DNA of 64,000 nt from Polytrichum commune. Its lineage: Eukaryota > Streptophyta > Polytrichopsida > Polytrichales > Polytrichaceae. The notes under the pieces are model-generated. The model was given only the letters and a program-made list of their open reading frames with translations. It searched no databases and was not told the origin of the DNA. The stretch lies in contig OX485803.1 of assembly GCA_950295325.1 (NCBI GenBank), positions 49,057,554 through 49,121,553 of the forward strand, written 5' to 3'. Positions 2,463 to 28,386 of the stretch are shown one piece after another (the stretch's first letter is position 1; the number at the start of each line of letters is the position of its first letter). The position numbers and the translations under genes were made by a program.

Positions 2463-2739
2463 CCATTAACACCGGTTTCGTTAAAAGTGCAATTCAATAT
2501 GTAAAAGTGCACATGAACAAATTATTGCAAACGCATAGATTTCAATGAAAATACGACCATATTATAATTGTATTGGATATAAAAATAAAAAAATAAAAAA
2601 TGGGTACATCTAGATCAATGGTCTTGGTCATTAATCAAATTATAATTTGATGATTTTTGTAAAAATACTTCATCCTACAATAAGATGAGGAATTCATTTT
2701 ATGGGAGTTATGTATAATTATAAAATAAAAACCAATTAC

Positions 2740-4585: not shown

Positions 4586-5525
4586 GGGATGAGGCACATG
4601 CCTCACCCTCCTTGAAAAATGTAAATTTCTCCTTAAGCTTGTGCTTAGATGTGAGGCACATGCCTCACCCTTATGAAATAAAATTCTAAATTTTTATGAA
4701 TTTTTTTTTTTGGGTAAGACACATCCCTCACCCTCTTTAAGAAATCTGAATTTCTTCTTAAGCTTGTGCTTAGAGTTGACGCACATGCCTCACCCTTATG
4801 AAACATAATTCTAAGTTTTGAATTTGTTTTTTGGGGGTGAGACACATACCTCACTTTGCTTGAAAAATCTGAATTTCTCCTTAAGCTTATGCCTAGAGGT
4901 AAGGCACATGCCATACCATTATGAAACAAAATTCTATGTTTTGAATTTGTATTTTTTTGTGGGACACATGCCTCACCTCCTTGAGAAATCTGAATTTCTC
5001 CTTAAGGTTGTACTTAGAGGTGAGGCACATGTCTCACCCTTATGAAAAAAAATTCTATGTTTTGAATTTGTTTTTTTTCGGGTGGGGCACATGCCTCACT
5101 CTCCTTGAGAAATTTGAATTTCTTCCTAAGGTTATGCTTAAAGGTGAGGCATATGCCTCATCGTTAAGAAACAAAGTTCTATGTTTTGAATTTGTTTTTT
5201 TTCGGGTGGGGGTAATGCCTCACTCTCCTTGAGAAATCTAAATTTCTCCCTAAAGTTATGCTTAGAGGTGAGGCATATGCCTCACCCTTATGAAACAAAA
5301 TTCTAAATTTTGAAGGTAAGTCACATGCCTCACTCTCCTTGAGAAATCTGAATTTCTCCTTAAACTTGTGCTTAGAGGTGAGGCACATGCCTCACCCTTA
5401 TGAAACAAAATTCTATGTTTTGGAGTTATTTTTTAGGGATGGGGCACATGCCTCACTCTCCTTGAGAAATCTAAATTTCTCCTTAAGGTGGTGCTTAGAG
5501 GCAAGGCACATGCTTCATCTTTAGT
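4586..5525. repeat. Tandem array, about 120-bp unit with two palindromes per unit
   Basis: About eight units of 115-125 bp. Each unit contains two copies of a GTGAGGCACATGCCTCACC-type palindrome about 60 bp apart, giving roughly sixteen palindromes. The linkers between them (TTGAGAAATCTGAATTTCTC and CTTATGAAACAAAATTC types) differ from those of the first array, but the palindrome and its spacing are the same. Divergence among copies is higher than in the first array. Confidence 0.85.
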
Positions 5526-8806: not shown

Positions 8807-10270
8807 ATGGCCGCTACAAGGATGCAGCGAATGGTGATGATGGCGGTGTATTGCTGCGCGGTTCTGATGGTGGCGACATTGCAATTGGCGGTGGCCAGCG
8901 ACGCCGACCCCATCAACGACTACTGCGTGGCGGACCTGGCCTGCACATTGAAGCTGAACGGTCTGCCTTGCAAGAACCCCGCGAACTTGACGGGCGAGGA
9001 CTTCGCGTTCCGCGGGTTCGAAAAGGTGGGCGATGTGGCGGCATCGCCCATCGGAGTTGTCATCACCCCTGGCTTCGCAGGTGTGAACTAGCTTAACTTG
9101 AGCTTGAGCTTGAACTTGAACGTTTAACATCACCCCTGGCTTCACCCGCTTCTTTCACATACTTCAAGTCACCAGCACACACAACCCTTTAGATCCATGT
9201 ATTACGAGAAGTGATGTCACATTGATTGAATCACATAGTTCTAGTGACCACATTGATTGAACGCCTTAGCTGCGAAACACGATATTAGGTTGGCAATATA
9301 AGCAACTTTCCGTTTTCATATTTGTTAGCTATAAGATCGAAATGGTCGAGATGATGTGAGTTGAATTTGGTATTGGATGAATCATTAGCTTAATGTTGAA
9401 TTAAAAATGACGGTACATCTAATGACGCCCACTGAAGTGTAAACAACTTTGTAAATCGATGCAATCAGAAAGTGTAACTTTGTATGGGAGGAATATGATA
9501 GGTGACAGTCAGTAAGTAGGGAGAATGACGTTGAGTAAGCGATGATTAGGCAAGTTATTTCGACACGCAGATGTTTGAGGAATGGAATCTGGCTTTCCAC
9601 ATGAATAATCTAGTCTAGTAACGAACTTGGAGATGAGTCCTCCTTAGTGATAATGCACTCCCAAATTTGCATCCCATGTTGTGTGTTGGTGGAATGCTTC
9701 ACTTTTTTCATGACTTAGATTTCATGGTTTTCCCTTTCTTTTGAAGATTGGCACTGGCATGCTGAAACTTGATGGATCTCAGTTTTGAGAGGGAACCCAT
9801 ACATTTCCATTGCAGATGTGTCCTCAGTGTTGTAATGTTGCAGTTGTGCACCCACATTTGCAGGGATAAACTACCCGGCCCTGAACACCCTTGGCCTGGC
9901 GCTGGCCCGGATCGACGTGGCACCGTACGCTCTGGTCCCTCCCCACACCCACCCGAGAGCAACCGAGAGCTTCTACGTGGTAGCGGGATCATTCTTTGTG
10001 GGATTCGTGGACACCAACGGGAAGTTTTTCTCCGCGTACTTGGGCAAGGGCGATGTGTTCGTGTTCCCCAAGGGTCTCGTCCACTTCCAGCTCAGCACGT
10101 GCAAGGCTGAGGTGTCCACCGCCATCGCCACTTTGAATGCACAAAACCCGGGGACGCAGCTCATTGCCCCTGCTTTGTTCGGGTCTCATGTTCCGGACTA
10201 CGTGCTTGAGAAGGCCTTCGGGCTCGATGCAGAAACTGTGCACAAGATCCAGAAAATTTTCACCCAGTAG
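8807..10270 (+). CDS. GLP: Germin-like protein, secreted cupin (two exons)
   Basis: Exon 1 is 8807-9080 and exon 2 is 9864-10270. The donor is GCAG|GTGTGA and the acceptor TTTGCAG|GG, and the split codon restores glycine in the phrase TPGFAGINYPALNTLG. The protein has 226 residues, the usual germin size. It starts with a hydrophobic signal peptide (about residues 10-30, ending LAVAS), then the N-terminal Cys pair region (NDYCVADLAC, PCKNP), an NLT glycosylation site, germin box 1 (PPHTHPRATE) and box 2 (GDVFVFPKGLVHFQ). The three His and one Glu that bind manganese in germins are present. Germin-like proteins are extracellular oligomeric cupins, some with oxalate oxidase or superoxide dismutase activity; the activity here cannot be told from sequence. 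The start was chosen because it gives the signal peptide. A duplicated 3' end follows at 10485-10737. Confidence 0.95.
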
Positions 10271-12491: not shown

Positions 12492-12534
12492 AGTGTTGGC
12501 AGGGTTGTCTATTGTGTCGTGATGGAGGGTAATC

Positions 12535-12570
12535 CCGGCATAATGTCGTGCCGTCACGACATTATGCCGG
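12535..12570. repeat. Perfect 36-bp hairpin near the left end of the giant hAT
   Basis: The arms are CCGGCATAATGTCGTG and its exact reverse complement, separated by the loop CCGT. The hairpin starts 35 bp from the left terminus and contains the GTCGTG/CACGAC words that recur at both ends of the element. hAT transposases bind short subterminal repeats, so this is a plausible binding site. Confidence 0.85.
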
Positions 12571-12713
12571 ATGCTGTCTTTATCCTGACGGACTTGAATT
12601 TTACCGATTTTTTTGTGTAATTACATTAACCCAATTCGGACACGTAGGATTTACAATGTCCACGTGTGATGACATGTCAGCAAAGTAAAGGTAAAGTGGG
12701 GAAAAATTTACTA

Positions 12714-13010
12714 GAGCCCGTCCGCCCCCGTTCCCAACCCCCGTTCGCCCACGTTCCCCCCCGTCCGCTCCTGCTCCCCGCCCCGTCCCCGCCCCGTCCG
12801 CTCCCCCCCCCTCCGTCCGCTCCCCCCCTCTCCCGTCCACCCCCCCCCGTCCGCTCCCCACCCTCTCCCGTCCACTCCCCCCGTCCGTCCGCTCCCCCCG
12901 TCCGTCCGCTCCCCCCGTCCGTCCGCTCCCCCCGTCCGTCCGCTCCCCCCCCGTCCGTCCGCTCCCTTGTCCGCTCCCCGTCCGCTCCCCGTCCGCTCCC
13001 CCGTCCGATT
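12714..13010. repeat. CCGTCCGC minisatellite 1, upstream of the transposase
   Basis: About 300 bp of short, CpG-rich, pyrimidine-biased repeats built on CGTCCGCTCCCC, with variable C runs. It ends eight bases before the TATA box of the transposase gene. Long proline-rich or Gly/Arg-rich open frames across it on both strands are by-products of the repeat. Confidence 0.9.
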
Positions 13011-13017
13011 CGAATAC

Positions 13018-13023
13018 TATAAA
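13018..13023 (+). promoter_or_regulatory. TATA box of the hAT transposase gene
   Basis: TATAAA sits directly after minisatellite 1 and about 235 bp before the chosen start codon. Similar TATA boxes next to minisatellites precede two other gene units of the element. Confidence 0.6.
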
Positions 13024-13254
13024 TTGAGGGTTCAAGGTGCCATTTTTGCCTCCACTGACATAGTGTATCTCAAGTCTTTTGATTCTCCTTTGAGGAGTGA
13101 GGATTGAATGCGTGAGACCCGAATGCAGAGGATACTTTGTCCAATCTAGTGACTGTGAATTAGGGTTGCCCTTGTGGCACTCTTGAACAGGACCTAGTAT
13201 GCGATCAAAGTTACTTGCTCTAACTTGTTTGTATTTGCAGGTTTTGTTGAAGTC

Positions 13255-15189
13255 ATGCCACGCCGAAATGATGCATGGGATCATTGGTACGAGGATAAGG
13301 GGATGGTTCCCGGTAAATCACAAAGGCAGAATAAATGTAGGTTTTGCCCGTTCGTCATATCTTACCGAGGAAATAGAATGTTGGCCCACCTTGGTTATAG
13401 ACCTCCTGTAGGGGGTGCTTGTGATGTTTCCACATGTAGGATGGTTCCCCCGCATATTAGGGTCTTGTTTAAACATTGCGGAGGCATTGTGCCCTTACAT
13501 ATAGGCATTGTAAATGAGGACTCTCCGGTGCTAGATATTGTACCTCTGGAGCCTATTATAGCGGACTCCGTAATTAGTGAAACAGAGCCTTTGCTTATGT
13601 CCCAATCCACTCAACATTCTGATGTTGTGATATATGGCACACCTCCTCGTGAACTACGTCAACTCAACATAACGGAGGGGTTCAATGTGTCAACAAAACA
13701 ACTCCTTGATAAAGCATGGGCAACGGCTTTTTATGAAGCTAACATTCCTTTCAACATTGTGAGACATCCTGCATTTGTTCATGCTGTGCGTGAAACTGCC
13801 CGTCATCGAATGCCAGCCTACACACCACCATCGTACAATGCCATCCGTACGAAGTTGTTAACTGATAAAAAGGTTGACCTAGATAGGCAAGTGAAGGAGA
13901 AGCTGGGGAATTCCGTTGACAAATATGGCGTTACACTATGTTGCGATGGATGGGACAACGTGGAAAACCGACCTCTCCTAAACGTTCTTCAATGTGGCAC
14001 AAAGGGAGACGTTTTCTTGGGTACCATTGACACCACGGGAAATCACAAGGATCATGTCTACGTTGCTGCTCAAATTCAACCATTTGTGGAAAAAGTTGGT
14101 CGACATAATGTGGTCCAAGTTTGCACCGACAATGCCCCAGTTATGGCCTCCGCTGCTCGCGACTTGATTCAAGCAAATCCCGATCTATATTTTCAAGGAT
14201 GTGCTGCACATTGCCTGGATCTCCTCTTAGAAGATTGGGGGAAGGAGGAATGGGTGAAAAAGTTGGTAAAAAAAGCGCGCCATATTTGTGTATTTGTTAA
14301 AAACCATCATGCTTCTCAAGCTATATTCCGGAGGTTGTCACCAAATCTCTCACTCCGCCTACCTGTAGAGACCCGTTTTGCAACGAACTTCATCATGATA
14401 GAACGTCTTCTCCAAGTACGCAATGCTTTGGAAAGAATGGTGGTTGATGAGGATTGGCCTACTCTAATGCGTGATATGAGGAGGAGATCTCGCACCTCTT
14501 ACATGAAGGGCTCTACTGTGCGAAGCTTTATACGTTCTAATGGATTCTGGAACACGTGCGAATTTTTTTTGTATATGGTGATCCCGGTTGTTAAAGCTCT
14601 TCGTGTATTTGATGGCAAGGCGCCTGCAATGGGAATGGCTTGGAGGGTCATGCATGATTTACAAACCCATATTCGTGGATTCAGTAAACCTCCATTACAC
14701 TTAAGCCCTGAGCTTGCTGCAAATGCTATGCTAACGTTTCAAAATAGATGGAGGTTGATGTTGAATGATCTACATTGGGCTGGAGCGATGTTAAATCCGT
14801 TTCTACGTGGTTGGGCCCCACTCCATGAGGATGACAATTCGAGGACAATCCTAAATCGAGTTCTTCGCAGACTTGCTCAAGATGAGGACACTTATGTCCA
14901 AATCCTCCACCAGTACCAAGATTTCCTTGAAAATCGAGGGCCTTTTGCTGATTCTACTGACCCGAGCGTGCATGCCGCACCTCTCCATGAATGGTGGGAT
15001 GCAATGGGAGGTGGAGCTAAAGCCCTCCAAACAAATGCAAGACGTATCCTTGCACAAGTATGTTCCGCATCCGCATGTGAACACAATTGGAGCATGTACT
15101 CATATGTTCACAACAAGAGTCGCAATCGCTTGAAGCATAGTCGTGCTGAGGACCTCGTCTACATATATACCAATAGTAGGCTCATTTGA
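13255..15189 (+). CDS. hAT transposase (BED finger, RNase H-like core, dimerisation domain)
   Basis: This is the enzyme that would cut and rejoin the 15.9-kb element. The frame is open from 13225, but a good splice acceptor (TTTGTATTTGCAG) ends at 13240, so I place the start at ATG 13255 (MPRRNDAWDHWY). The protein has 644 residues: an N-terminal BED-type zinc finger (KCRFCPF ... RMLAHLGY), a DUF659-type core with CCDGWDN and QVCTDNAP giving the two Asp, a GCAAHCLDLLLEDW Cys/His motif, and a C-terminal hAT dimerisation region with the catalytic Glu in ACEHNWSMYSYVHNKSRNRL. All catalytic residues are visible and the frame runs nearly 2 kb unbroken. It stops where related proteins usually continue, and the continuation is found in another frame (see next entry). 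Confidence 0.93.
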   Translation: MPRRNDAWDHWYEDKGMVPGKSQRQNKCRFCPFVISYRGNRMLAHLGYRPPVGGACDVSTCRMVPPHIRVLFKHCGGIVPLHIGIVNEDSPVLDIVPLEPIIADSVISETEPLLMSQSTQHSDVVIYGTPPRELRQLNITEGFNVSTKQLLDKAWATAFYEANIPFNIVRHPAFVHAVRETARHRMPAYTPPSYNAIRTKLLTDKKVDLDRQVKEKLGNSVDKYGVTLCCDGWDNVENRPLLNVLQCGTKGDVFLGTIDTTGNHKDHVYVAAQIQPFVEKVGRHNVVQVCTDNAPVMASAARDLIQANPDLYFQGCAAHCLDLLLEDWGKEEWVKKLVKKARHICVFVKNHHASQAIFRRLSPNLSLRLPVETRFATNFIMIERLLQVRNALERMVVDEDWPTLMRDMRRRSRTSYMKGSTVRSFIRSNGFWNTCEFFLYMVIPVVKALRVFDGKAPAMGMAWRVMHDLQTHIRGFSKPPLHLSPELAANAMLTFQNRWRLMLNDLHWAGAMLNPFLRGWAPLHEDDNSRTILNRVLRRLAQDEDTYVQILHQYQDFLENRGPFADSTDPSVHAAPLHEWWDAMGGGAKALQTNARRILAQVCSASACEHNWSMYSYVHNKSRNRLKHSRAEDLVYIYTNSRLI

Positions 15190-16453
15190 CATCGGAGGGG
15201 CCCCAAGACCTGCGCAATGGTACGAATTGAATGAGGTCCATTCTGACGATGACCTTGAGGAAGAAGATGACAACGAAGATGACGTGGATCCAAATGATAG
15301 GGCCGGAAATGATGATGACAACAATGTTGATGACATCGACTTTGATTTGGATGACCTCGATTCCGAGAATCATGATTCAGAAGATGAGGATGGCAATGGT
15401 GGTGATGGAAACCTTGGGGTGTTTGATTTTGATGAACCGGATGTCCCCCAACATAACGACGGAATGCATGATGATCATGAGGGGTCTATTGGAGGACCGC
15501 CTTTTGAAACTCTCCACACTGGACAAGGGTTTCGCCCTGACCATAATGTTGCTATGGGGGCAAGTGAGAATGTAGGAATTGAAGTAGATTCCTTGCAACC
15601 TCGGAGCGATTCTCTTTCTTTTGGTGAAAGTGACAATGTACTACCCGCAAATGAGCCAACGCACGTTCAACAGGATCCACTTCCAGCCCGAGTACATTCT
15701 GAATCCATAGACGCCTTCCTCATATCCAACCATCGTGTAGAAGATCAAACGCCCAATGTTCCTGAAATACCTACAACTCGATTCCGTGCTCTTCAAAGAA
15801 CTGCATCCACCTCTATGGTGCAAGTGCATGCACAAGGTCAATGTCGTCCTCTCACTCGAACTATTGTCAATACTTCTAGATTGGGTGTTTCACGTGCAAC
15901 TACAGTGGGTGCTACTTTGGTTGCTATACACAATGTTTCAAGAAATGTTACTACTGAGGCGCCACGTCGTCAATCTGTTCGTCGACATGTTGTTGAGAAC
16001 ATACCAATTGCAATTCCGTCCGCATCAGTTTCACTTCCACACAGTCAATCCAATGGAACATGTGGCCTTGGAGTTGGAGGCGGAAGTACAACGGGGGATG
16101 TTTTTATAGATGGAAGTAGAGATGAAGTGCACTCAAGTCGTGGTACGGGTGGAGGGCGTCAGAGAACTACGAGAGGTGTCAAACGTACTAGGAAGAGGTA
16201 TCAGGGAAGATCGCTTCCGTTTACTGCTGAAGACTACAATGAAGATGAGGGTAGACCACATCTAGATGAAAATGGCATACAGGATGCAGAGGGCTCCCGG
16301 CCGACCAAGAAGATAATTTTCTCACAACGTGACCGAGAGTTGCATCTTCGGAGTGCGATTCCCCAAACGGATGATGATTGCAGCACAGACGAGTCTGAAG
16401 AGGACCCAAGATATGTCGAAGCAAATGATCCCACAGTACGGATTCGAACGTAA
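15190..16453 (+). CDS. Acidic/basic tail of the hAT transposase, in a shifted frame
   Basis: This frame is open from 15143 and so overlaps the transposase end by 47 nt. It has no ATG near its beginning, so it must be reached by splicing or a frame change, or a one-base difference has split a single gene. It begins GGAPRPAQWYELNEVHSD, runs into a strongly acidic stretch (DLEEEDDNEDDVDPND and onward), then a Ser/Thr-rich middle, and ends with a basic cluster (RQRTTRGVKRTRKRYQGR) that could be a nuclear signal, followed by another acidic tail. An acidic tail after the dimerisation domain is common in hAT proteins. No GT-AG pair of normal plant intron length is obvious at the junction. A separate protein is less likely. 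Confidence 0.6.
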
Positions 16454-17200
16454 TGGTTTTGCACAAATGCGGTATTTTGGTCATCCCACGTACTTCCATA
16501 ATTTATTACTTACGTCAAAATTGATACAAGTTACAACCTTAGGGCCTTCGGTAAGACATTTAGACCACAAAGCGAACGTTACCTTCGAAGTTGTATCATT
16601 TTATTATAGTAATAAAATTATTTATTGCATGTTTTTTAAAATTTTTAAAATACAATATGGTTGTCAACTTAGCATTGTAATTAATCTCCAACAACATGTT
16701 ATGCCTTTATTAAGTACTATTTTGTATTATTCTTACTGTGAATGGAGTTTTATGTTTATTTATTGAGCTTCTTAAAGAAATTGCTTTTATAAATATTGCA
16801 ATCCCCTATTGCTCGATTGTACATGCTTTGTTGGTGACATCTTTTTTTTGAGGACCTTTCTATCCGTTTTATATAATTATATCTTTATGTGGTATTCAAT
16901 ATTGACTATGTAGTCAATAGTACTTTTGGTTAGACTATCATATGAATTACTAATATTCAAGTAAGTTTTTAAAAGTTTCGAATAACATTAAAACATGTGG
17001 CATCCATATGCTATCTTTTACACGATCTTAGAAATGACGACTTGTGGGTAAATTCTCTTTATATTACATATTCTTTGAACGTGAAATATGTTCATTGTGT
17101 CCAAAGTCTTCCTCCGTTCCTATACAACTTTCTAAACATGGTACAAAAATGCCTAATCCGAATCTGAATCGAGGTCTATTCTAGCTGAAGTAGATCATCG
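16454..17200. other. Spacer between converging gene units of the giant hAT
   Basis: AT-rich spacer between the 3' ends of the transposase and RING units, which converge here. It probably contains both 3' untranslated regions and poly(A) sites. No gene is seen. Confidence 0.5.
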
Positions 17201-17551
17201 TCATGCTCGAGATGATTCCTCCGCTTCCATGCTTCGCGTTGTTCCACGGGTGAGGTATGGACGACTACCAGGAGACAATGGAACGGCGTTACGTGGTCTA
17301 GGCCCACCATTTAGCCATCTTAATACCGCATCATCCGCAACTCTATGCAAGAGTGCATCAATTGCAGCCAACTGCAGCCTGTTCTTGTGGTACCCCACCA
17401 CTAACTGTAATTCAAATCTCGGATCCCGTTCCGTAGGCATGTCATCTGCATCTTCTTCCAAATCATACTCCGATACTGATTCGAGACCTGCTGCATTGTA
17501 CCAACGAGGATGAATGCCTCTCTTTAATTGTCTGCTGGTTGTATCCCAATG
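17201..17551 (-). CDS. C-terminal part of the RING cargo gene, shifted frame
   Basis: The open stretch directly follows the RING frame but is offset by one base. It reads HWDTTSRQLKRGIHPRW, then an acidic run (YDLEEDADDMPTERD), an amphipathic region (RFELQLVVGYHKNRLQLAA) and a basic end. It has the look of a coding C-terminus rather than a chance frame. It is probably the continuation of the RING protein, split by a small indel or a very short intron. No independent start is evident. Confidence 0.45.
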   Translation of the reverse strand, partial: HWDTTSRQLKRGIHPRWYNAAGLESVSEYDLEEDADDMPTERDPRFELQLVVGYHKNRLQLAAIDALLHRVADDAVLRWLNGGPRPRNAVPLSPGSRPYLTRGTTRSMEAEESSRA

Positions 17552-17555
17552 TCAT

Positions 17556-18209
17556 TCAAGAGTTTGGTACAAAAATCTTTTCAAGCATTGATCGGGGGGG
17601 CTTGTTGGGATACAACTCATCTGCAACATACAAAATTTGACGTGCATTCCGTGTCCAGTCGCCATCTCTGTTCTCGTACCATAGCTCAACCTTGGCACAA
17701 TTGTATAACCAACTCCACTCAACATTCTCCCCATCAAACTCTTGAAGATCGAAGGGAAAGTCCCATGGCTTTAATACCCAGTTGTTAGACATGTAATCCC
17801 GAAGGCCAAATTGGAGGTACAAACGAGGGTGGAAGGGTGATCTGCAATGAGGACATTGGCGTTTCTTGATCATATTTCCTATTAGACATTGTGGATGGAA
17901 TTGGGCCCCACATGATCCAACTTGATAGCATCCTTCCGGGCCAAATGGAGATTGGCAAATCGCACACGCGGTTCCGTCGAAGACCATTGTATGTGGATTT
18001 GGCCATAACAACTCACCCCTCATGCGGAATGGATATTCATGCACTTGGGTCACATCCCAATGGTGATCTGGGTCGGTCACTTGACGCCAATCGATGCTCC
18101 CGTTTGGCAATGTCCACTCATTAGTTATATCCCACCTACTAGGGTACATATGTTCATCTTCTGGCCATGACGTGAGCATCATGTTCCACATTCTCAATTG
18201 CGGTTCCAT
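17556..18209 (-). CDS. RING-finger protein (ubiquitin ligase-like), hAT cargo
   Basis: Open frame of 217 codons. The centre carries a RING-type cysteine/histidine pattern: CAIC, then C at YQVGSC, GAQFHPQCLIG, and CPHCRSPF, so eight candidate zinc ligands are in order. Around it are Trp-rich segments (WPEDEHMYPSRWD, NNWVLKPWDFPF) that I do not recognise. RING fingers usually recruit ubiquitin-conjugating enzymes, which would make this an E3-like protein; that is inference from the motif alone. The frame starts inside the end of the preceding coiled-coil frame (16-nt overlap, ATG within the last codons), so the two are probably one gene now split by a frame change, or are joined by splicing. 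It runs opposite to the transposase. Confidence 0.7.
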   Translation of the reverse strand: MEPQLRMWNMMLTSWPEDEHMYPSRWDITNEWTLPNGSIDWRQVTDPDHHWDVTQVHEYPFRMRGELLWPNPHTMVFDGTACAICQSPFGPEGCYQVGSCGAQFHPQCLIGNMIKKRQCPHCRSPFHPRLYLQFGLRDYMSNNWVLKPWDFPFDLQEFDGENVEWSWLYNCAKVELWYENRDGDWTRNARQILYVADELYPNKPPRSMLEKIFVPNS

Positions 18210-19450
18210 TCTTTCTGGATGCTCTCAAACTCAGCTTCAAATTGACGAGCCTTGGCTATAGCAAGCAATGTGCTTGTCCTCATATTGTTGCGCTCCACAA
18301 TCGCATCCAACAGGAATTTCTTCAACCTTCCATTCTGCTCCTCCAGTCCGCCAATCTTGGCTTCGTGATCAACAACCACTTCATTGACCACTTGAAGTTG
18401 TTGTTGGATGTCTACCACCTCCTTTTGCAAAGCCTCTATCTTTCTTCGCATTACTTCATTCCTCATACATACTTCCAGAGCTTGTGACTTTGCAATCTTG
18501 GCCTCCTGTAAAGCTGCGTCACTCTCTGCTTCCAAAGACTGAAGGTTAAGTGGTGTACTACTTGAACTGCCAGCCTCCCCCATCGTAAGTGTTGCAACTC
18601 GATTTTCCAACTCGAAAATCATCGTTTTATACTCACGAATTTCCAACGCATGTTGCTTACGCAATTCCTCCATTCTGCTCTCCATCGGGTCCGCTCCAAG
18701 TTCACCAAGGTTTACCTCGTCTAGGACCTCGTTAACCACGTCGTTGACCTCGACATTTGTCTCCATGCCCTCATCCATATGCTCAAACGCCTCCTCGATG
18801 GCCATCTCCATGTCATTGGCTGGTCGTTTACGATTACGTGGTTTTTTTGGTTCCCGACCCTCTGGAATTGGGGCCCCAGGCTCATCCACTAGTCGAGGAT
18901 TCCTCCTGAACCACTCCGGAACGAGAGTGTATGGAATATCTGGAACTGTGCATTTAGTTAATGCAATTCCAATACCCCCAAATTTCTGATTATGCAGAGC
19001 AGCCAAACTTGACCAATCCACCCTAACTCGCAACACATGCTCCGCATACATCATACACGCCACCGACTTTGGAATTGCACTCTTGGGCCATCTATCCAAA
19101 TTGGAGATACTTCTGAGTATCATTAGGAATCTCCATTTTGCCTCCACGTCATCAAGCTGCATATAACTCGCACTGATGGCCTTGCAATGTCGTTCGTGAC
19201 AAGGTCTTGGCCACAACCGATCAAAGTGAGGGAAGCCCACGTACTGCATTGCAGTCTTCGCTGACCACGGTTGTGGTACATTCTCCCAACCTGCCCTGGC
19301 TTTTTGGGTGTTGTCATCATAAACATTCCACTCCAACCCAGCGGCCTTGCGTACATGTGATCTGTGACAACCTGATCCTCCACTTGCACTTGCCATGTCT
19401 CCAGATCCTCCACTTGCCATGTCTGGAAATCCTTCACTTGCCGTATCCAC
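18194..19450 (-). CDS. Coiled-coil protein, N-terminal part of the RING cargo gene
   Basis: Open frame of 418 codons starting at an ATG about 440 bp downstream of a TATA box (19886-19893, minus strand). The first 30 residues are Gly/Ser-rich. Residues about 35-200 form a compact Trp-rich domain (GLEWNVYDD, GWENVPQPW, KWRFLMILRSISNLDRW) that I do not recognise. It is followed by a basic NLS-like stretch (EPKKPRNRKRP) and a long coiled coil (about 255-418). It ends as the RING frame begins, suggesting a coiled coil followed by a RING in one protein, an arrangement seen in many E3 ligases. Nothing resembling a transposase is present. It is a good candidate accessory protein of the giant hAT. Confidence 0.75.
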   Translation of the reverse strand: MDTASEGFPDMASGGSGDMASASGGSGCHRSHVRKAAGLEWNVYDDNTQKARAGWENVPQPWSAKTAMQYVGFPHFDRLWPRPCHERHCKAISASYMQLDDVEAKWRFLMILRSISNLDRWPKSAIPKSVACMMYAEHVLRVRVDWSSLAALHNQKFGGIGIALTKCTVPDIPYTLVPEWFRRNPRLVDEPGAPIPEGREPKKPRNRKRPANDMEMAIEEAFEHMDEGMETNVEVNDVVNEVLDEVNLGELGADPMESRMEELRKQHALEIREYKTMIFELENRVATLTMGEAGSSSSTPLNLQSLEAESDAALQEAKIAKSQALEVCMRNEVMRRKIEALQKEVVDIQQQLQVVNEVVVDHEAKIGGLEEQNGRLKKFLLDAIVERNNMRTSTLLAIAKARQFEAEFESIQKEWNRN

Positions 19451-19885
19451 CCAAATTGTAGTTTCTAATTCTAATCTAGAACTCTAATTTTTAAATTACT
19501 AATTGCACTTCATAATAGTGCTACAAAACATCCAAGCATACACTTCAAAATAGCGTTGCTATGGAATTAGTTAAAAAATGTCGTTAAAAATTAAAGTTCA
19601 AAAATTCAGCACACCCTTCGAGCACCCCGCTACCAGCGCTCACGCAGAGGCCAGTTGACTGGGCGCGTCACAAGGAATATGCCAAAAAGGCAATATGCCA
19701 CGTCACAAGGGAACGGGTCCACGTGGATCACACCCACAAACAGGTCAGTAAAAAAAGTATAAGAGGATCCCAAAAAAGGGATCCTTAACTCCTCCAAGCA
19801 CCCCGCTACCCCGCATTTTGTAGTAGAGGAGGGTCGTCCGGGCGCCCACAAGGAGTGGAGTGGGGTATGTAAGTGGTCCCCTCCA

Positions 19886-19893
19886 CTTATATA
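19886..19893 (-). promoter_or_regulatory. TATA box of the coiled-coil/RING gene
   Basis: TATATAAG on the minus strand, ten bases from the edge of minisatellite 2. This is the same arrangement as for the transposase and the kinase, but mirrored. Confidence 0.65.
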
Positions 19894-19903
19894 CCCCTCC
19901 ATC

Positions 19904-20636
19904 CGCTCCCCGTTCCCATCCTGTTCGCACCCGTTCCCCACCCAGTCCGCACCCGTTCCCTACCGTCCGCGCCCGTTCCCCTCCCAGTCCGCACCCGTTC
20001 CCTCCCGTCCGCGCCCGTTCCCCTCCCAGTCCGCACCCGTTCCCGACCCCGTCCGCCCGCGTTCCCCTCCCAGTCCGCACCCGTTCCCTTCCGTCCGCCC
20101 CCTGCGTTCCCCCCCAGTCCGCACCCGTTCCCGCCCGTCCGCCCCCTGCGTTCCCCCCCAGTCCGCACCCGTTCCCGCCCGTCCGCGCCCGTTCCACTCC
20201 CAATCCGCACCCGTTCCCCTCCCCGTCCGCCCGCGTTTCCCTCCCATTCCGCACCCGTTCCCCTCCCAGTCCGCGCCCGTTCCCCTCCTGTCCGCACCCG
20301 TTCCCTCCCGTCCGCGCCCGTTCTCCTCCCAGTCCGCACCCGTTCCCTACCGTCCGCGCTCGTTCCCCCCCAGTCCGCACCCGTTCCCGACCCCGTGCGC
20401 ACCCGTTCCCTTACGTCCGCCCCCTCGTTCCCTACGTCCGCACCCGTTCCCGTACGTCCGCCCCCTCGTTCCCCTCCGTCCGCCCCATGTTCCCCTCCGT
20501 CCGTTCCCCTCAGTCCGCTCCCCTCCGTCCGCCCTATGCTCCCTTACGTCCGCTCCAACGTTCCCTCTCGTCCGCTCGATGTTCCCCTACGTCCGCTTTA
20601 GAGTTCCCATCCGTCCGCTCCCGCGTTCCCCTTGAA
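19904..20636. repeat. CCGTCCGC minisatellite 2 (about 730 bp)
   Basis: The longest of the four arrays. The unit is about 22-24 bp in its first two thirds (CAGTCCGCACCCGTTCCC and variants), turning into shorter CGTCCGC units distally. The pyrimidine-rich strand is the plus strand, as in the other three arrays, even though the adjacent gene is on the minus strand. Confidence 0.9.
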
Positions 20637-20650
20637 TCTGCACTTTTTAA

Positions 20651-20787
20651 CTTTTTTTGGAAGTTTGGACATAGTCTCGGTTTTTTGGCTCTCAAAAATT
20701 CATATGAAGTCCAAAAAATGAGTTCTTGGTATCCATGGATAGGTAATGAAGTCCTCTACATGAATATGCAATAATATTTCTACTGCA
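20651..20787 (+). repeat. Conserved 135-bp repeat beside the minisatellites, copy 1
   Basis: The sequence contains AGTTTGGACATAGTCTCGG, TTGGCTCTCAAAAATTCATA and TGGTATCCATGGATAGG, and ends near CAATAATATTTCTACTGC. It recurs at 24104-24257 and 27521-27690 in the same orientation with few differences. This copy follows minisatellite 2 and is followed by a short degenerate C-rich stretch. Confidence 0.9.
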
Positions 20788-21145
20788 CATTCCCGCGTCC
20801 CCCCATCCGCACCCCATTTAACTTAGGCCCTTCGCAAATAATATATGTGACACTAAATATCATAACCGGTGTACTTATTCACACAAAACTAATGAAGGAT
20901 CCCTCAAGCAACAAAGTAACCAATGTAGTATGATGACCAACAAATTATCACCCCATAGAAGTATGCAATAATTAGCGGTTGGTTGAAATTTTATAAAAAA
21001 TATATATCATAGAAGTGGTACAATATATTGTACAAGTAATAACTTTATTATTGCGACGACGGTATAAATGCCCTTTATAAATCACATACATGAACAAACC
21101 ATGCACGATTTAATATTCCACTTCATTCCGTCAACTTGATTTCTG
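20788..21145. other. Spacer inside the giant hAT
   Basis: AT-rich spacer between the conserved repeat and the 3' end of the small basic-protein gene. It begins with a short remnant of C-rich repeat (to about 20815). Nothing else is seen. Confidence 0.45.
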
Positions 21146-21700
21146 TCATGGCAACCTCGTAGATGCTTGTGGCTTCCGTCGAGGGTCCATTTTTGGGAGA
21201 GGATTCAGTCGAAGTAAATTAACATAGTTAATCGTTCGGTCTTTCATCCGTTCCTTCAATGGTAGCCGATGAGGCGATAATCCTCTCCTTTTCTTACGAA
21301 AAAACAAAGTCCTTGAAGATTCTCCCGCTACCTTGACATCTTCAATGTCGATTGAATTGTCATCCACATCCCCGGGCTTCACCCAAATATCCACGCTCAA
21401 ATCAACCACATCATTTGGATCTCCACCCACGCTTTTTGTTAGGTCCTTTTCCACTGCATTGATCTTGAATTTCGCCGCATATCATTGTTGGTCGTCCTCC
21501 GCCCTCAACTTCCATGCTTGTGTAGATTGTGAGAAGGGGGTCATGACATAGTCATCACGAAATCGATTTCTAGCACTTCTCTCATCTCTTTCACGCTCGG
21601 GTGATGGATTGAATGGAATATCGGGTTCACCTAAATTTTCTATCTCCTCATCACATCTTAGACCCTCAAACATGTCTCTCTTTTCTCCCATCCTATCCAT
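21146..21700 (-). CDS. Small charged protein with basic NLS-like motif, hAT cargo
   Basis: One reading frame of 185 codons, interrupted by a single in-frame TGA at 21480-21482. The first half is highly charged (PSPERERDERSARNRFRDD). The second half is acidic (DDNSIDIEDVKVAG) and then basic (FFRKKRRGLSPHR), which looks like a nuclear localisation signal. No domain is recognised. A TATA box (21742-21749, minus strand) lies about 45 bp upstream, so the leader would be very short unless translation starts at the second Met (MGEKRDMFEG). It could be a nuclear partner of the transposase, in the way some DNA transposons carry a second DNA-binding protein; that is speculation. The in-frame TGA means a pseudogene or a missed intron. 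Confidence 0.5.
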
Positions 21701-21741
21701 GATACTCTACCCTCGTTATATGTATGAGTCTAAATGCTCTA

Positions 21742-21749
21742 CTTATATA
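21742..21749 (-). promoter_or_regulatory. TATA box of the small cargo gene
   Basis: TATATAAG on the minus strand, identical to the box of the coiled-coil/RING gene, and downstream of a tandem-repeat array rather than a CCGTCCGC minisatellite. Confidence 0.5.
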
Positions 21750-21974
21750 CTAAGCTCAAAGGACTTTATGAAATTTATAATATTTGATGTAATCCAAGAT
21801 GTAGAGGATCCAATTCTCGTTGGTAAGATAAAGACAACACAATAGGAATAAAAAGAAAGTCGGTGAAGTCAAAAAGTTAGTTGCACTTTTTGAAAAAGTC
21901 CCCCCGACACCCGCATTGGAAACCTCTTTGATACCTCTTTGAAGCTTCTATATTTGATGGGTTGTTCTTTCATT

Positions 21975-22423
21975 CAACAAATTATATATTTGTGCTTGAA
22001 CCTTAGTGGTTCGTATGGTTTCACAACCCACACGTATTCGAATGTCATTTTAATTCAACAAAGTACATATTTGTGTTTCAACCTTTGTGGTTCATATGGT
22101 TTCACAACGCATTTCAGGCATCCGAATGCCATTTTCATTCAATAAATCACATATTTGTGCTTCAACCTTAGTAGTTCGTATGGTTTCACAACCCACACGC
22201 ATTCGAATGTCATTTTAATTCAACAAAGTACATATTTGTGCTTCAACCTTTGTGGTTCATATGGTTTCACAACGCATTTCAGGCATCCGAATGCCATTTT
22301 CATTCAACAAATCACATATTTGTGCTTCAACCTTAGTGGTTCGTATGGTTTCACAACCCACACGCATCCCCTTGCCCTTTCATTCAACAATTCACATATT
22401 TGTGCTTCAACCTTTGTGGTTCA
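21975..22423. repeat. Tandem array of alternating 79- and 85-bp units
   Basis: Six units beginning with CATATTTGTGCTTCAACCTT-like sequence. Two types alternate: one contains CACAACCCACACGCATTCG, the other CACAACGCATTTCAGGCATC. The true period is therefore a dimer of about 164 bp. The last unit is partial and runs into three telomere-type repeats. Confidence 0.9.
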
Positions 22424-22446
22424 TAAACCCTAAACCCTAAACCCTA
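22424..22446. repeat. Interstitial telomere-type repeat
   Basis: Three consecutive copies of the plant telomere unit (AAACCCT), directly joined to the end of the 79/85-bp array. Confidence 0.85.
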
Positions 22447-23509
22447 CGTCTACGTCATTCCAAATTGCTACCACATATGTGCCATTGTTTTGTTCTCACA
22501 CTCATGTAGAAGTGTTTCCATACATGGTTTGAGGGTTTAGGTTCCCAGCTTTCCAACGAACCCACCCGCTTTTTTTTACGATGCCTACAGCGAAAGATAA
22601 ACGTTCGCAAATCGCGAGGACTACTTCAAGTTGGCACAATCTCTACTTAGACATATAACTTATGGTATACATTGGGGTTTTTAGAAGGGGTCATGAACGC
22701 ACGTGATTCTCAAACATAATGTAGAGTGCATCCCCCGAGTTCCCATAGGCTTCATAAAGATATCTTACCAACACCTTACACAAATTATAACATTCTAGAA
22801 AAATAAATTAATCTGGTCCACATTGATATTAAACTAGGGAATTGGTGTGGGTTTAAATTTAATGTGACCCACATTAGTGATCATTTGGGGGGGGGGTGCA
22901 CTATACTAAATCCGTATGAGTATATGTGAGTGCACAAAAGAGGTATTGATTTGAACTTTGTTGTATTATGTATACATATTCTTCACAAAATTATAAGTTG
23001 TAGTTATGTAAATATATAGAATAATTTAAAAAAATATACAACATCTCTACTAACTTGTATGGTAGTGTCACTAGATTTTATAGAATAAGGTTTATTTTAT
23101 TTTAGTATTGGCTTAAACTGGTACATAAAAAGAACCAACCACATGTGAACATACGATCTTACATATCATTTGATGGTAGACTTCAAAATAATAATTGCAT
23201 TAGCTTTTATGACATGTATTACAAATCAGATTATGGGAGGATTGAATGGAAACATATGCTTAGGGACTTGGAAAAAGGGTCGGACGTGGCCTACCATGAC
23301 ATTCTTAACAAATTTGATTTGATTTGGGGGGTCAAAGGTCTTATTGTGACCCGTAGCAACTTAGTCCCTACTTGGAAGGATAGGCCTCAAATGAGCATTA
23401 TTTATAGATTTCCACTTAGGCTGTGCTGTTTCAGCTGGGTTGGTTGTATTTTGAATTTGAATTTTGAATTTGTGCCAAAAAAAGAATAAGACATGTATTG
23501 CAAATCTAA
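22447..23509. other. Spacer inside the giant hAT
   Basis: AT-rich sequence with no recognisable gene. It contains a G10 run (22888-22897) and, near 22840-22885, short inverted words around GTGTGGGT and GACCCACATTA. It is probably decayed element sequence. Confidence 0.4.
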
Positions 23510-24096
23510 GGGCCGGTTCACAATATGGCCAAACTTTGAGAGGTTCAACATTTGGACCAATGAAAATGCTGAAATGCCCAAAGTCCGTCCTCTCGGCCTT
23601 CATACTAGAGGCCGAAGTCCAAAGGACGTCGCCTCCAAAAGAGCCTAGGTGGCAACACTTTTAGGAAGTTATGGCGCCAAGAGTTCGGCCTCTCGAGCAA
23701 AGTTTGGGTATAGCAAAATGCTCAACCCAAACTTCCGTCGAGAGGCCGAACTTTTTTTTCATTAAAATAATCAATCATTGACAAGATCTTGGCCGTTAGA
23801 TTGGAGGGGTTATTTTGAGCAAGGAATAAAGTGGCATGCTCCTTTGAGTTTGGACTTTGGGCTTGGCCTTTGGAGGCTTCACACTTTGGCCATCCAAGCC
23901 GAGAGGCCGTGGGAGTTCATGGCCAAAGGTTTGGACTTTGCGCTTGGCCTTTGGAGGCTTCACACTATGCCCAACTAAGGCTACCCTTACTATATTTTAT
24001 TGGCTATTTTCAGTTCATTTCTTTGGACTCTCAACAAAGTTGGGCCACTCAATCGCACGGCCTCTCGACTTGGACGGCCATAGTGTGAACTCGGTC
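23510..24096. mobile_element. Nested short inverted-repeat element inside the giant hAT
   Basis: The left end GGGCCGGTTCACAATATGGC is matched by the inverted right end GACCGAGTTCACACTATGGC. The interior contains a repeated phrase (TTTGGACTTTG, GCTTGGCCTTTGGAGGCTTC, twice about 75 bp apart) and several CGGCCTCTCG or CGAGAGGCCG words in both orientations. No coding gene is seen. It resembles the PIF/Harbinger-like short elements elsewhere in the window (GGGCC ends), but the flanks do not give a clean 3-bp duplication. Confidence 0.55.
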
Positions 24097-24103
24097 ATTT
24101 ACA

Positions 24104-24257
24104 CTTTTTTTTAAAAGTTTAGACATAGTGTCCGTTTTTTGGCTCTCAAAAATTCATATGAAGTCCAAAAAATGAGTTCTTGGTATCCATGGATAGGTAA
24201 TGAAGTCCTCTACATGAATATGCAATAATATTTCTACTACCAGAAAATACATGGCCG
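24104..24257 (+). repeat. Conserved repeat beside the minisatellites, copy 2
   Basis: Nearly identical to copies 1 and 3. It ends with a CCAGAAAATACATGGCCGC segment shared with copy 3 and then passes into minisatellite 3. Confidence 0.9.
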
Positions 24258-24281
24258 CAATTCCACGTTGTTCCCCTGCCC

Positions 24282-24600
24282 CCCTTCAACCCGTTCCCTC
24301 CCGTCCGCCTCACGTTCCCCACCCGCCCGCTCCACATTCCCCTCCGTGCGTTCACGTTCCCTCCCGTTCCCTCTCGTCCGCCCCGCGTTCCCCACCCGTC
24401 CGCCCCGCGTTCCCCACCCGTTCGCCCCACGTTCCCCACCCGTCCGCCCCACGTTCCCCTACCGTCCGCCCCACGTTCCCTCCCGTCCGCCCCTCGTTCC
24501 CTCCCGTCCGCCCCACGTTCCCTCCCGTCCGCCCGAGTTCCCCTACGTCCGCCCACTCGTTCCCTCCGTCCGCCCCCGCGTTCCCACGTTCCCCATACGT
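24282..24600. repeat. CCGTCCGC minisatellite 3, upstream of the kinase
   Basis: About 320 bp of CCGTCCGCCCCACGTTCCC-type units of about 20 bp. It ends about 60 bp before the TATA box of the kinase gene. Confidence 0.9.
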
Positions 24601-24661
24601 CCTTTTCGTGCCCCATGTCAAATCCGACCGGGATCCCATAATGATTGTGCACCGCTTTGCC

Positions 24662-24668
24662 TATATAA
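24662..24668 (+). promoter_or_regulatory. TATA box of the kinase cargo gene
   Basis: TATATAA, about 210 bp before the kinase start codon and shortly after minisatellite 3. Confidence 0.65.
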
Positions 24669-24874
24669 AGCCGTGGGGCTTTAGTTCCCCTCACTTTCCT
24701 CTCCTCCCACCACAAAGGGACCCGAGACCTTGTTGCCGTCCCAAGGACAGCGGCACCGCGTGGGTCTCAGGGGGTTTGGGAGGGCAGGGCAAATTGTGGG
24801 GGAACCCTCGCAATTTTTTTTCCAGATTCACTTGCTGATTTCTACATTCACTCACTCACGCAGTTTTTTTCACG

Positions 24875-26791
24875 ATGGAGGGGGAGGACATTGCTCCTTA
24901 CCAAGACGAGGATACGAGGGTGCACCGTGCTTGGCTCCAACGCACTCCATCTACGTATACTGGAGAGGGTACGGGAAGCGATGCCGGAAGTGGAAGTACT
25001 GCAGCCCGTCCCCCACGTCCAGATCCTTTTCGGTTTGACGAAGAGTTCTTTGTTGTTGGTCATTCAGGAGGCAACCAAACACGTGGAAGCCGTGGAACAC
25101 GTGGGAGTCGGGGAAACAGTGGCCTTAGAGGGAGAACATGAAGGGGACCAAGCTCAGGCAGTTCCACAGATACAAATGCAGCCACTCGTGGTGAGTCCGT
25201 GCCACCACGATCTCCGACACTGCAGACATCAAGACCGGAGAGCCCTGCACGTGATGTACCTCAGGGTTCGGAGCATGGTGAAAGACGGGGACAGAAACGC
25301 CCAGCAGTTTCGGAAGGGACGGAGGAGGGGTCCGCGGTATCAGGTTCGCAATCGAGGAAAAAGAAAAATAGAGGCAAACGTGACCCGCAGATCGATGAGG
25401 CTCGAAACCATTGTAGGGTCGTGTTGTTGGAGTGGTTTAGAAATAACAGCATGGTTTATTTGGAAAAAAAATACCTCAATGATGGTACAAAGGGTTTAGA
25501 GTTGGTGAGGAATGAATTGATGCTTATTCTCACGGAAGCCACGGCTGGACCGGAGTTTGAAGAAGCTAGGGGAATGAACGATTGGGACACCTGGATTGAA
25601 CAACAAGCCAGGGAAGCAATCTACAATCCAACAATGGCATATGATGCTCTGCATCTTGGCGAGGGAAATAGTAGTGGCAGGAAGTCCGAGCTGTACATGA
25701 AGCTAGAGAATTGGAAAAGAGGCGTAATAGCAGCAAAAGGAACATCCGCCCGCAACCTTCCCATTTTTATTGACAGGCAGATGGCAGACAACATTGCCAC
25801 TCAGGGCCGGCAAGGTGTCATATGGTTGCCTAGGAATGCGGAGATCAAAGCCTTGGATAAGGAAATCTTCCAAGGGACCTTCGGAGTGGTGCGGAGAGTC
25901 ACAATTCATGGAGCATCATTCATCCCTAGCTGGATAGAGTGGGCTGGGAAGACCATGAAGGCCACGAATAGTCTGGAGAACCGAAAGGAGCGTTCAATTG
26001 AAGCATTGGCGTGTCCAGTAGATCATCCTGGGGTAATCAAGCTACAATACCTCAATATGAAAACATACGAATCCTATTCGATGTGGTGGAATGGAGGCTC
26101 CTTGAAGAACATGAGGGTCTATGACTTCAGCGTTCCGGAAACCCACGAGCGCACAATCCTTCAAATGCCTAGGGCAGACTTTGAAGCACGGAAATGGTTG
26201 GTTGTATATCGAAGGCATCGAGCTTATTTGGCATGGGCTCTAATGTGCATTGTGGATGTAGTGCACAAGCATGACGTGTTGCACAATGACCTTAATCCCA
26301 ACAATGTCATGCTGCATTTCCCACAAGACCGTGATAACACGGTTTATATTGGTGTGTGTGATTGGGGCATGGCATCCTGGGGAAGTGAAGACGCACCCTC
26401 CAACTATGGAAGAGATTCAGTGGATGAGATGAACAAGCACAAAGAAAAATACAACTGTGCTGGTCCAGAATTATTCCATGTACGAGGGCAGCGTGGAACA
26501 TCCACCTCTCCGGTGAGGATGGCTCGGAAACATAGGCACACGTTTCTCTCGGAGTCCTTCTCAGTGGGTGCTTTGGCAAAGAAGATTTATGCCAGGGATG
26601 CGACTTCCCCCTTGTTTCAGCTAAACAGTGATCCAAATGGCTTGAATATGCGGTTTGAGTTAGCATTGGATTCATTGACGAAGACCAATCCAGCGGAAAT
26701 GTCAACCATCACACACGTAGTGAACATTTTGAAGTCCCCTCCATACAACATGGTTAACCCGACAATGTGCTTCCGTGACACTGTAAAATAG
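24875..26791 (+). CDS. Divergent protein kinase, hAT cargo
   Basis: The frame starts at ATG 24875 (MEGEDIAPYQDED) and runs to 26791, with one in-frame TGA at 25139-25141. Downstream of it the same frame is open for 549 codons. The first 150 residues are low-complexity and charged, with a basic stretch (SRKKKNRGKRDP). The kinase domain follows: glycine loop FQGTFGVV, lysine in WAGKTMKA, Glu in RSIEAL, hinge-like YSMWWNGGSL, catalytic loop LHNDLNPNNV, a DWG in place of DFG (VCDWGMAS) and CAGPELFH in the APE position. Lys, catalytic Asp, Asn and metal-binding Asp are all present, so it could be active. Plant receptor kinases use HRD and DFG, so HND with DWG marks an unusual lineage. It runs in the same direction as the transposase. 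The TGA means recent decay or a short missed intron. Confidence 0.8.
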
Positions 26792-27520
26792 ATTTTTTTT
26801 GTTTTTTTTGCAGCAATTTTGAATCATACCAATTTTGTAACCGTTGGAGATGTAAATAAAACCATCATTTTTTCATACAAAACTTGTATATTGTATGAGG
26901 TTTATGGATCTTAGTGCAATGTTCATACTCCATGAGGCTTTTGCTCCATAATCGAGAAGAAGTCTATGGGAGGCTAACCAAGGTTCTCACCTCTCGTGAG
27001 GCCACATCGTTCTTTCACATCGTTGTTATCACATCCATGTGCTAAGTTCAAGTTACCTATAGTTGTTTGTGATATGTCTTGCCAAAATGCAGTTACCTAT
27101 ATTTATTCTAATTTTGGTATGCCACAAAATGTAGTCAACTATAGTTATATCTAGTTAACTAAAGTTGAGCACAATATTGCAATAGTTATATCGGTTGTAC
27201 ACGTGATCCTCAACATCTCTAAATGTTAACTTTCTTCTACTCCCCACATATTGCACACTATAAATGTTAAACGTGTTAAATGTTAACAAAATGGTACTCC
27301 CTTCTTTGTAAATCTGACTCTATAAACGTTAACGGATGAAATACAACCATAATATGGATGATAAAAACTACACATCCAGTTACATTGATTCATATTCACT
27401 CGTGATTTGTAAACTTGATATTGAATAAAGTTTTGATTGGGTGTGCAATTTTATGAATGGTATTCTCTCACAAGGACTCTTCACAATTGCTTATATTTAT
27501 ATTTATATAATTCAGAAACA
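26792..27520. other. Kinase 3' region and spacer
   Basis: AT-rich. It probably includes the kinase 3' untranslated region (AATAAAACC near 26855 is a possible poly(A) signal). Nothing else is recognised. Confidence 0.45.
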
Positions 27521-27690
27521 CTTTTTTTTGGAAGTTTGGACATAGTCTCGGTTTTTTGGCTCTCAAAAATTCATATGAAGTTCAAAAAATGAGTTCTTGG
27601 TATCCATGGATAGGTAATGAAGTCCTCTACATGAATATGCAATATTATTTCTACTGCCAGAAAATATATGGCCGCAATTGCACGCTGTTC
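27521..27690 (+). repeat. Conserved repeat beside the minisatellites, copy 3
   Basis: Same sequence as copies 1 and 2, extended to ATGGCCGCAATTGCACGCTG and passing directly into minisatellite 4. Confidence 0.9.
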
Positions 27691-28104
27691 CCCTCCCCCC
27701 CGCTCCCCTCCGCGTTCCCCCGTCCGCTCCAGCGTTCCCCCCCGTTCCCAACCCCCATCCGCTCGACCCCCCTCCCCCTCCGTCCGCTCCATCCCCCCGT
27801 CCGCCCCACCCCCCTCCGTCCGCCCCACGCCCCACCCCCGTCCGCTCCACCCCCCTCCACCCCCGTCCGCTCCACCCCCCCGCCCCCCCGCCCCCGTCCG
27901 CTCCACCCCCTCCCCCGTCCGCTCCACCCCCCACCCCCGTCCGCTCCACCCCCTCCACCGTCCACTCCACCCCCCTCCGTTCGCCCCACGCCCCACCCCC
28001 GTCCGCTCCACCCCCCTCCGCCGTCCGCACCACCCCCCTCCCCCGTCCGCCCCACCCGTCCGCCCCCGTCCGCCCCACCCGTCCGCCCCCGTCCGCCCCA
28101 CACC
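27691..28104. repeat. CCGTCCGC minisatellite 4, near the right end
   Basis: About 410 bp of CCCCCGTCCGCTCCACCCC-type repeats. Unlike arrays 1-3 no gene follows; only about 270 bp separate it from the right terminus, so a promoter here would point out of the element. Confidence 0.9.
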
Positions 28105-28297
28105 CTCCTTAGTCATATTTTTCTACTTTGATTTTAACAGAATGATAAACACAATGGCAAAATGGTTTACTTGGCAAGGGAAATATGCACATCCACGTCG
28201 GCGTTTTCTGCCACATAGGACGCCACCTTGGCAAGAAGGTAAGTATTTTACCCACCCTAGTCCATTCACCCTATGTTGACCCTACGTGGACCCTATT

Positions 28298-28327
28298 GTG
28301 TCGTGACGGAGGGGTCCGTCACGACAC
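28298..28327. repeat. Perfect hairpin at the right end of the giant hAT
   Basis: The arms are GTGTCGTGACGGA and its exact reverse complement around a GGGG loop. The left arm lies in TATTGTGTCGTGACGGAGGG, which also occurs with one change next to the left terminus (TATTGTGTCGTGATGGAGGG), so the terminal word is present in both orientations at the right end. Confidence 0.85.
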
Positions 28328-28386
28328 GACACGACATGACGGCACGACACCGTCATGACGTCGCGATAGACAACCCTGAGTGTTGG

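Follow-up and report, generated by a model that had tools for sequence, protein, structure and literature searches.

Introduction

Descriptions of hAT elements usually give them one gene, that of the transposase, and plant DNA transposons often carry gene pieces. Here we analysed a window of 64,000 nucleotides from Polytrichum commune (G000:C1:49057554-49121553, within a 408-Mb genome of 64 contigs, of which C1-C7 are large) in which a hAT element of 15,879 bp (window 12500-28378) encloses a transposase gene (T), a coiled-coil/RING gene (RC), a small open reading frame (S) and a protein-kinase-like gene (K). The element is one copy of a multi-copy family, and we consider it quite probable that it represents a decayed member of a giant hAT family equipped with accessory genes of its own.

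The hAT superfamily (Ac, Tam3, hobo and kin) shares with this element the DUF659 and hAT dimerisation domains, short terminal inverted repeats (TIRs) starting with CAGGG, 8-bp duplications and the occurrence of short derivatives. It differs in size and content, most hAT elements being several times shorter: Gulliver, the longest of 276 plant hAT sequences surveyed in PMC6027215, measures 7144 bp, whereas the element described here spans 12.2-18.4 kb in the 20 loci where both ends were found and has four genes.

The VANDAL/Hiun elements of Arabidopsis, with VANC, likewise combine a DNA transposon with an accessory gene. To our knowledge, VANC is neither a RING protein nor a kinase. It is an anti-silencing protein whose target motifs form tandem repeats, as outlined in PMC5735166, and Vandals are Mutator-like elements (MULEs; PMC13317346), whereas our element encodes a hAT transposase. 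VANC may serve as the closest working analogy for RC and K, as an analogy and not as membership. The KIU genes, VANC genes of Vandal elements with a transduplicated Ulp1 domain, resemble the present case in being accessory genes with a domain of a ubiquitin-like pathway; they differ in belonging to a MULE and in their protease-type domain, and the passages of PMC13317346 on them mention no kinase.

Large transposons with several genes are also described outside plants. ToxhAT/ToxTA of fungi is a 14-kbp DNA transposon with several genes that was formerly named hAT, but it has TA duplications, likely belongs to Tc1/mariner, and is single-copy and non-autonomous, according to the relevant parts of PMC12506042. 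The Starship giant transposons of fungi are large eukaryotic transposons with cargo, but they use a tyrosine recombinase, reach tens to hundreds of kb and carry varied cargo. In the planarian giant Gypsy element Burro a RING-type motif was noted, but Burro is a long terminal repeat retrotransposon (PMC6431247). The words hAT and kinase are absent from the main text of that 2019 giant-transposon review, and hAT, kinase, RING and ubiquitin from the main text of a 2026 review of plant gene capture (PMC13317346). The initial annotation of the window knew of no hAT family with such content, and our literature search found none either; most subscription journals and Repbase lay outside its scope, and an earlier description is possible.

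Results

Ends, target duplications and empty sites

The matching 13-bp termini and the exact 8-bp duplication that had been proposed to lie 15.9 kb apart were confirmed at the following positions:

12492..12499, no strand: left 8-bp target-site duplication AGTGTTGG
12500..12512, plus strand: left 13-bp TIR CAGGGTTGTCTAT
28366..28378, minus strand: right 13-bp TIR, exact inverse of CAGGGTTGTCTAT
28379..28386, no strand: right 8-bp target-site duplication AGTGTTGG

The 13-bp TIR of the window copy is perfect and other copies share these ends, apart from single-base changes at the left in copy A8 and in the type C copy. We read 13 regions, namely the window, ten more with its gene arrangement (type A), B1, in which the kinase gene is inverted, and copy C1, which has a third arrangement. 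In 11 of them both ends could be located, in A7 and B1 one end only. Three neighbouring copies carry one common duplication, CTTTTTGG, which we read as a segmental duplication, and because of it the 11 regions count as nine independent loci. Eight of these nine have exact 8-bp duplications, the exception being A5. End slices of nine more loci yielded seven exact duplications, one with a single mismatch and one locus without a match, and two loci with open genes both have an exact duplication. In total, 17 of the 20 independent loci with both ends show exact duplications, one has one mismatch and two are unmatched. The 17 duplications are all different, and element length across the 20 loci ranges from 12,245 to 18,404 bp.

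The first 30 bp of the left end matched the genome at 550 places with at most 2 mismatches and the reversed control pattern at none, which, together with the duplications, ruled out chance repeats as an explanation of the ends. Among the first 100 left-end places listed, 35 lay within 12 kb of a strong match to the transposase domain DUF659 and 65 did not; the ends therefore outnumber the transposase genes several-fold. Several hundred of the surplus ends probably belong to derivatives without a nearby transposase, and short derivatives are likely one reason for the surplus. One derivative of 568 bp, bounded by both family ends and by an exact duplication of its own, CTTGAGAA, was identified by direct reading ~0.9 kb from a type C element:

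C7:0.5 M copy (L048+L031+L032+L047), oriented 18038-18606: 568-bp derivative

Two other insertions yielded empty sites; the window's AGTGTTGG, for which the initial annotation had proposed to look, yielded none. Four junctions, each made of the two flanks and a single duplication, were searched together, and the best 40 of 385 candidates were scored. For the junction of C6:31.2, 37 of the 40 scored matches run across at 97-98% identity, some of them at equal length (259/259 bases at C1:28643006); for C6:13.0, three of the 40 do so (271/271 bases, 97%). These two elements are thus inserted in repeats of which further copies exist without them. No empty site was found for the window insertion or for C3:30.0, which means little with only the best 40 of 385 candidates scored. 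The right ends of the family copies are near-identical, and these ends and the empty sites may be taken as indirect signs of transposition.

By eye, GTCGTGAC/GTCACGAC repeats are numerous in the subterminal parts of the window copy, at 12500-12600 (including the ~80 bp next to the left TIR) and 28290-28365. They are candidate transposase binding sites.

Genes of the element

Four genes lie between the ends:

13255..16453, plus strand: T, hAT transposase gene of ~1065 codons where the copy is whole; carries DUF659 and a hAT dimerisation domain
17556..19420, minus strand: RC, coiled-coil/RING gene, a single uninterrupted frame in certain other copies; carries zf-RING_2 in the C-terminal part
21149..21700, minus strand: S, small open reading frame of 184-188 codons where the copy is whole; interrupted by one stop in the window
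24875..26791, plus strand: K, protein-kinase-like gene of ~638 codons where the copy is whole; open from 25142 in the window

The identification of T as a hAT transposase held. In the window it matches DUF659 (PF04937) at E 9e-35, above the cut-off, and the hAT dimerisation domain (PF05699) at E 1.7e-8, with 34.6 bits in the window and 35.3 in copy A1 against a cut-off of 21.4. The gene had to be corrected in one respect, as a frameshift near 15.15-15.19 kb splits the window copy. Its motifs CDGWDN, CTDNA and ACERNW (ACEHNW in the window) hold candidates, by eye, for the catalytic D, D and E (DDE) of the superfamily. No solved-structure relative was found at E <= 0.1 for the 644-residue part of T in the window.

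The RING and coiled-coil parts belong to one gene, which is split in the window by a frameshift near 18.2 kb and whose product is one protein of at least 620 residues; its middle is, by eye, a coiled coil, and its C-terminal part holds a RING. The zf-RING_2 match (E 1.4e-6) scores 28.9 bits, the curated cut-off being 27.3, and the nearest solved structure for the RING is an RNF38 chain (E 3.6e-4). When aligned to RNF38, the domain departs from the canonical eight zinc ligands in having an Ala at the fourth ligand position; by eye, an extra upstream Cys may substitute for it in a C4HC3-like order. RC might be an E3 ligase that its coiled coil would keep in complexes.

K had been called a protein kinase. 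It matches Pkinase at E 8.9e-7 and retains the catalytic-loop Asp and Asn and the metal-binding Asp, since its HND..N and DWG align with HND..N and DFG of PknI, its sole solved-structure match (E 0.005); these letters are unchanged in copies A5, B2 and C2. We name it kinase-like because its Pkinase scores (29.0 and 30.7 bits) fall just below the Pfam cut-off of 31.7. A single scan of viral_contigs with one window protein, which reaches close relatives only, returned no viral relative of K.

All four genes are broken in the window: T and RC are frameshifted, S has one stop, and K has one in-frame stop in its N-terminus near 25140. Across the 13 copies read, T is damaged in nine. All four frames are open at two loci, C1:32.57 (T 1093, RC 788, S 188 and K 940 codons) and C2:2.24 (T 1084, RC 734, S 188 and K 708 codons).

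Linkage and arrangement of the genes

A search of the genome for DUF659 gave 132 matches (all 138 first-look candidates were scored), which after four second pieces were dropped from the 32 weaker rows came to 100 strong (>= 108 bits) and 28 weak places; these counts are lower bounds. RC matches lie within 25 kb of 91 of the 100 strong places, S matches within 25 kb of 83 and K matches within 30 kb of 76, the K counts being a lower bound as the best 95 of 210 candidates were scored. All three are nearby in 66 cases and none of them in four. Random placement would give 1.3 for RC and 1.4 for K, so that RC and K as unrelated neighbours are ruled out. The lists behind these figures held 103 places for RC (from 149 matches, after weak generic RING matches and second pieces were dropped), 95 for K (from 96 rows) and 148 for S (from 151 matches, including relatives of ~50% identity outside the hAT family).

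Relatives without cargo were also considered and rejected: the four strong places without other genes nearby have short open frames of 389-526 codons. Among the weaker places, seven of 28 lie near other family genes and 21 do not. The DUF659 search, its counts being lower bounds, revealed no whole DUF659 gene apart from family genes.

The 125 gene clusters include 14 of type A, the window arrangement (T+ RC- K+), 27 of type B (T+ RC- K-) and three of type C (K+ T+ RC-); the rest are incomplete or mixed. All the genes occur in each of the three arrangements. The expectation that other copies would share the ends and the gene set was largely borne out, but gene order is constant only within an arrangement and not across arrangements.

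Minisatellite arrays and putative promoters

The window copy holds the following repeats:

12720..12996, plus strand: GTCCGC minisatellite array 1, 259 bp upstream of the T ATG, with TATA-like CTATAAAT at -238
19945..20618, plus strand: GTCCGC minisatellite array 2, upstream of RC, with TATA-like GTATATAA at -474 of RC
21968..22425, plus strand: 81-84-bp tandem repeats upstream of S; related repeats also occur in the copies of types B and C that were read
24303..24573, plus strand: GTCCGC minisatellite array 3, 302 bp upstream of the K ATG, with TATA-like CTATATAAAG at -213
27722..28096, plus strand: GTCCGC minisatellite array 4, right subterminal
20647..20830, 24101-24284 and 27518-27701, plus strand: 184-bp direct repeat in three copies, each beside an array

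The distance between array and gene is largely kept in the 12 type A and B copies. A GTCCGC array lies 258-259 bp before the T start in all 12, 442-597 bp before the conserved RC start region in all 12, and 298-322 bp before K in 11, A1 having 1282 bp. In B1, where K is inverted, the K array is inverted too and the distance is still 302 bp. Copy C1 falls below the GTCCGC motif threshold, and there related CCCGTCCGA/CGTTCCC arrays precede T, RC and K. TATA-like boxes, examined in seven of the 13 copies and given here with no chance control, were found in all seven at -238 of T, -335 to -481 of RC and -213 to -233 of K. S has a TATA-like box at about -50 in seven of seven copies and no array within 700 bp upstream. 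We read T, RC and K as one putative regulon, whose cassettes would have been re-ordered through the arrays.

In the window, the observed/expected CpG ratio reaches 1.40-1.62 within the arrays, as against 0.65-0.77 within T, RC and K; the two flanks have 0.63 and 0.32. The 81-84-bp tandem repeats upstream of S are followed at window 22424-22446 by three AAACCCT units, which are telomere-like.

Selection and decay

Between lineages B and C the ratio of non-synonymous to synonymous substitution rates (dN/dS) is 0.47 for K, 0.46 for RC and 0.43 for T, which indicates similar constraint; each value comes from a single pair, with different copies for each gene. Within type A the ratio is 0.55 for RC and 0.76 for K, and 0.96, near neutrality, for T; for K within type C it is 1.03 (one pair). 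Long open frames of RC and K are present in type C copies and in copies of type A or B. Near-neutral drift among copies, combined with constraint from lineage to lineage, is the pattern to be expected of functional transposon genes whose copies decay.

Synonymous divergence of B1/B2 from type C is 0.11 for T and for S, 0.19-0.20 for K and 0.29-0.32 for RC. These unequal values resemble what a swap of gene blocks among lineages would leave.

Among changes private to one of nine A copies, C>T or G>A account for 160 of 206 in T, 148 of 224 in RC and 97 of 223 in K. Without A8, dropped for its poor K alignment with 19 frameshifts, the counts in the remaining eight copies are 140/176, 121/164 and 80/98, respectively. 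In T the rate of private C>T or G>A per site is 0.148 in CG, 0.124 in CHG and 0.093 in CHH contexts. This pattern would fit cytosine methylation but also a general bias.

Relatives of S

The small basic protein noted in the initial annotation corresponds to S, whose product has no Pfam match at E <= 0.5. We listed 30 relatives at 48-54% identity, and 13 of these 30 have a listed gene of another element within 4 kb, mostly at a distance of 2.0-2.6 kb. That element is very abundant in the genome (the best 146 of 1757 candidates were scored). A single locus of this kind was read:

L053, G000:C7:7651000-7656500: S relative beside the gene of the other element

The adjoining gene has no Pfam match and looks MULE-like by eye. 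Because 13 of the 30 listed relatives adjoin this gene, S is, judged by the neighbourhood of its relatives, a transposon-associated protein family common to two element families.

Surroundings of the element in the window

The remainder of the window holds the following genes and tandem-repeat arrays:

9836-10270: cupin gene
34691-35446: gene with a histidine-kinase-type ATPase domain
40924-41367: alpha/beta hydrolase gene
2723-3551: array of 59-bp units
4564-5517: array of 123-bp units
54272-54588: array of 34-bp units

Discussion

The suggestion that the cargo is useful to the element gains support from our results: purifying selection on RC and K is consistent with genes that serve it. That the cargo acts on host ubiquitin or phosphorylation signalling we infer with more reserve, as the RC RING is without one usual zinc ligand and K scores below the Pfam cut-off.

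In the mechanism that we propose, T would cut and paste the element and mobilise the short derivatives in trans. RC and K would be produced together with T and act for the element rather than for the host, and S would probably be a further accessory factor. The arrays would be docking sites for an element-encoded DNA-binding protein that turns on the three promoters jointly. Our tentative proposal for RC and K is that they relieve host silencing or regulate transposition: the RING protein would remove or modify a chromatin repressor or the transposase itself, and the kinase would modify either of the same two targets. It is possible, and for now no better than that, that the giant hAT lineage as a whole would be a multi-gene selfish system in which T, RC and K form a regulon under common minisatellite promoters, RC and K act as a joint counter-defence (or transposition-control) module against the host, and the arrays allow the cassettes to change order while the set stays complete.

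We consider it improbable that the element arose by nesting, with hAT, RING, kinase and S elements inserted in one another and amplified by the outer ends. The S relatives beside the other abundant element agree with such an origin, as do the gene blocks separated by arrays and 184-bp repeats and their unequal synonymous divergence. However, all genes are present in each of the three arrangements and T, RC and K have a common promoter design, and no internal termini were noticed around RC or K in the copies read, where no systematic search was made. Nesting may describe how S arose.

We likewise give little credence to a benefit for the host, that is, to RC and K being retained by selection on the host, as has been proposed for the cargo of fungal Starships. 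Purifying selection on RC and K, seen also within type A, would be expected then. However, the copies decay, as the damaged T genes indicate, and the gene set is uniform across the family and not varied.

Passive capture, in which host RING and kinase genes were amplified with a hAT element by Pack-type transduplication and have no function for it, is very unlikely because K, RC and T are constrained about alike between B and C: the habit of plant DNA transposons of carrying gene pieces, the stops or frameshifts in many copies and the near-neutral ratios of some within-type pairs (T within A, K within C) speak for it, but RC and K, unlike captured fragments without selection of their own, have long open frames and B versus C ratios of 0.46-0.47, are linked to the transposase and have its promoter design in common.

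A giant hAT family with its own accessory genes, in which a RING-type and a kinase-like gene have been kept about as constrained as the transposase across three gene arrangements, would make counter-defence or transposition control testable in plant DNA transposons. Its regulatory design, with one type of minisatellite before each of the three constrained genes, is unusual.

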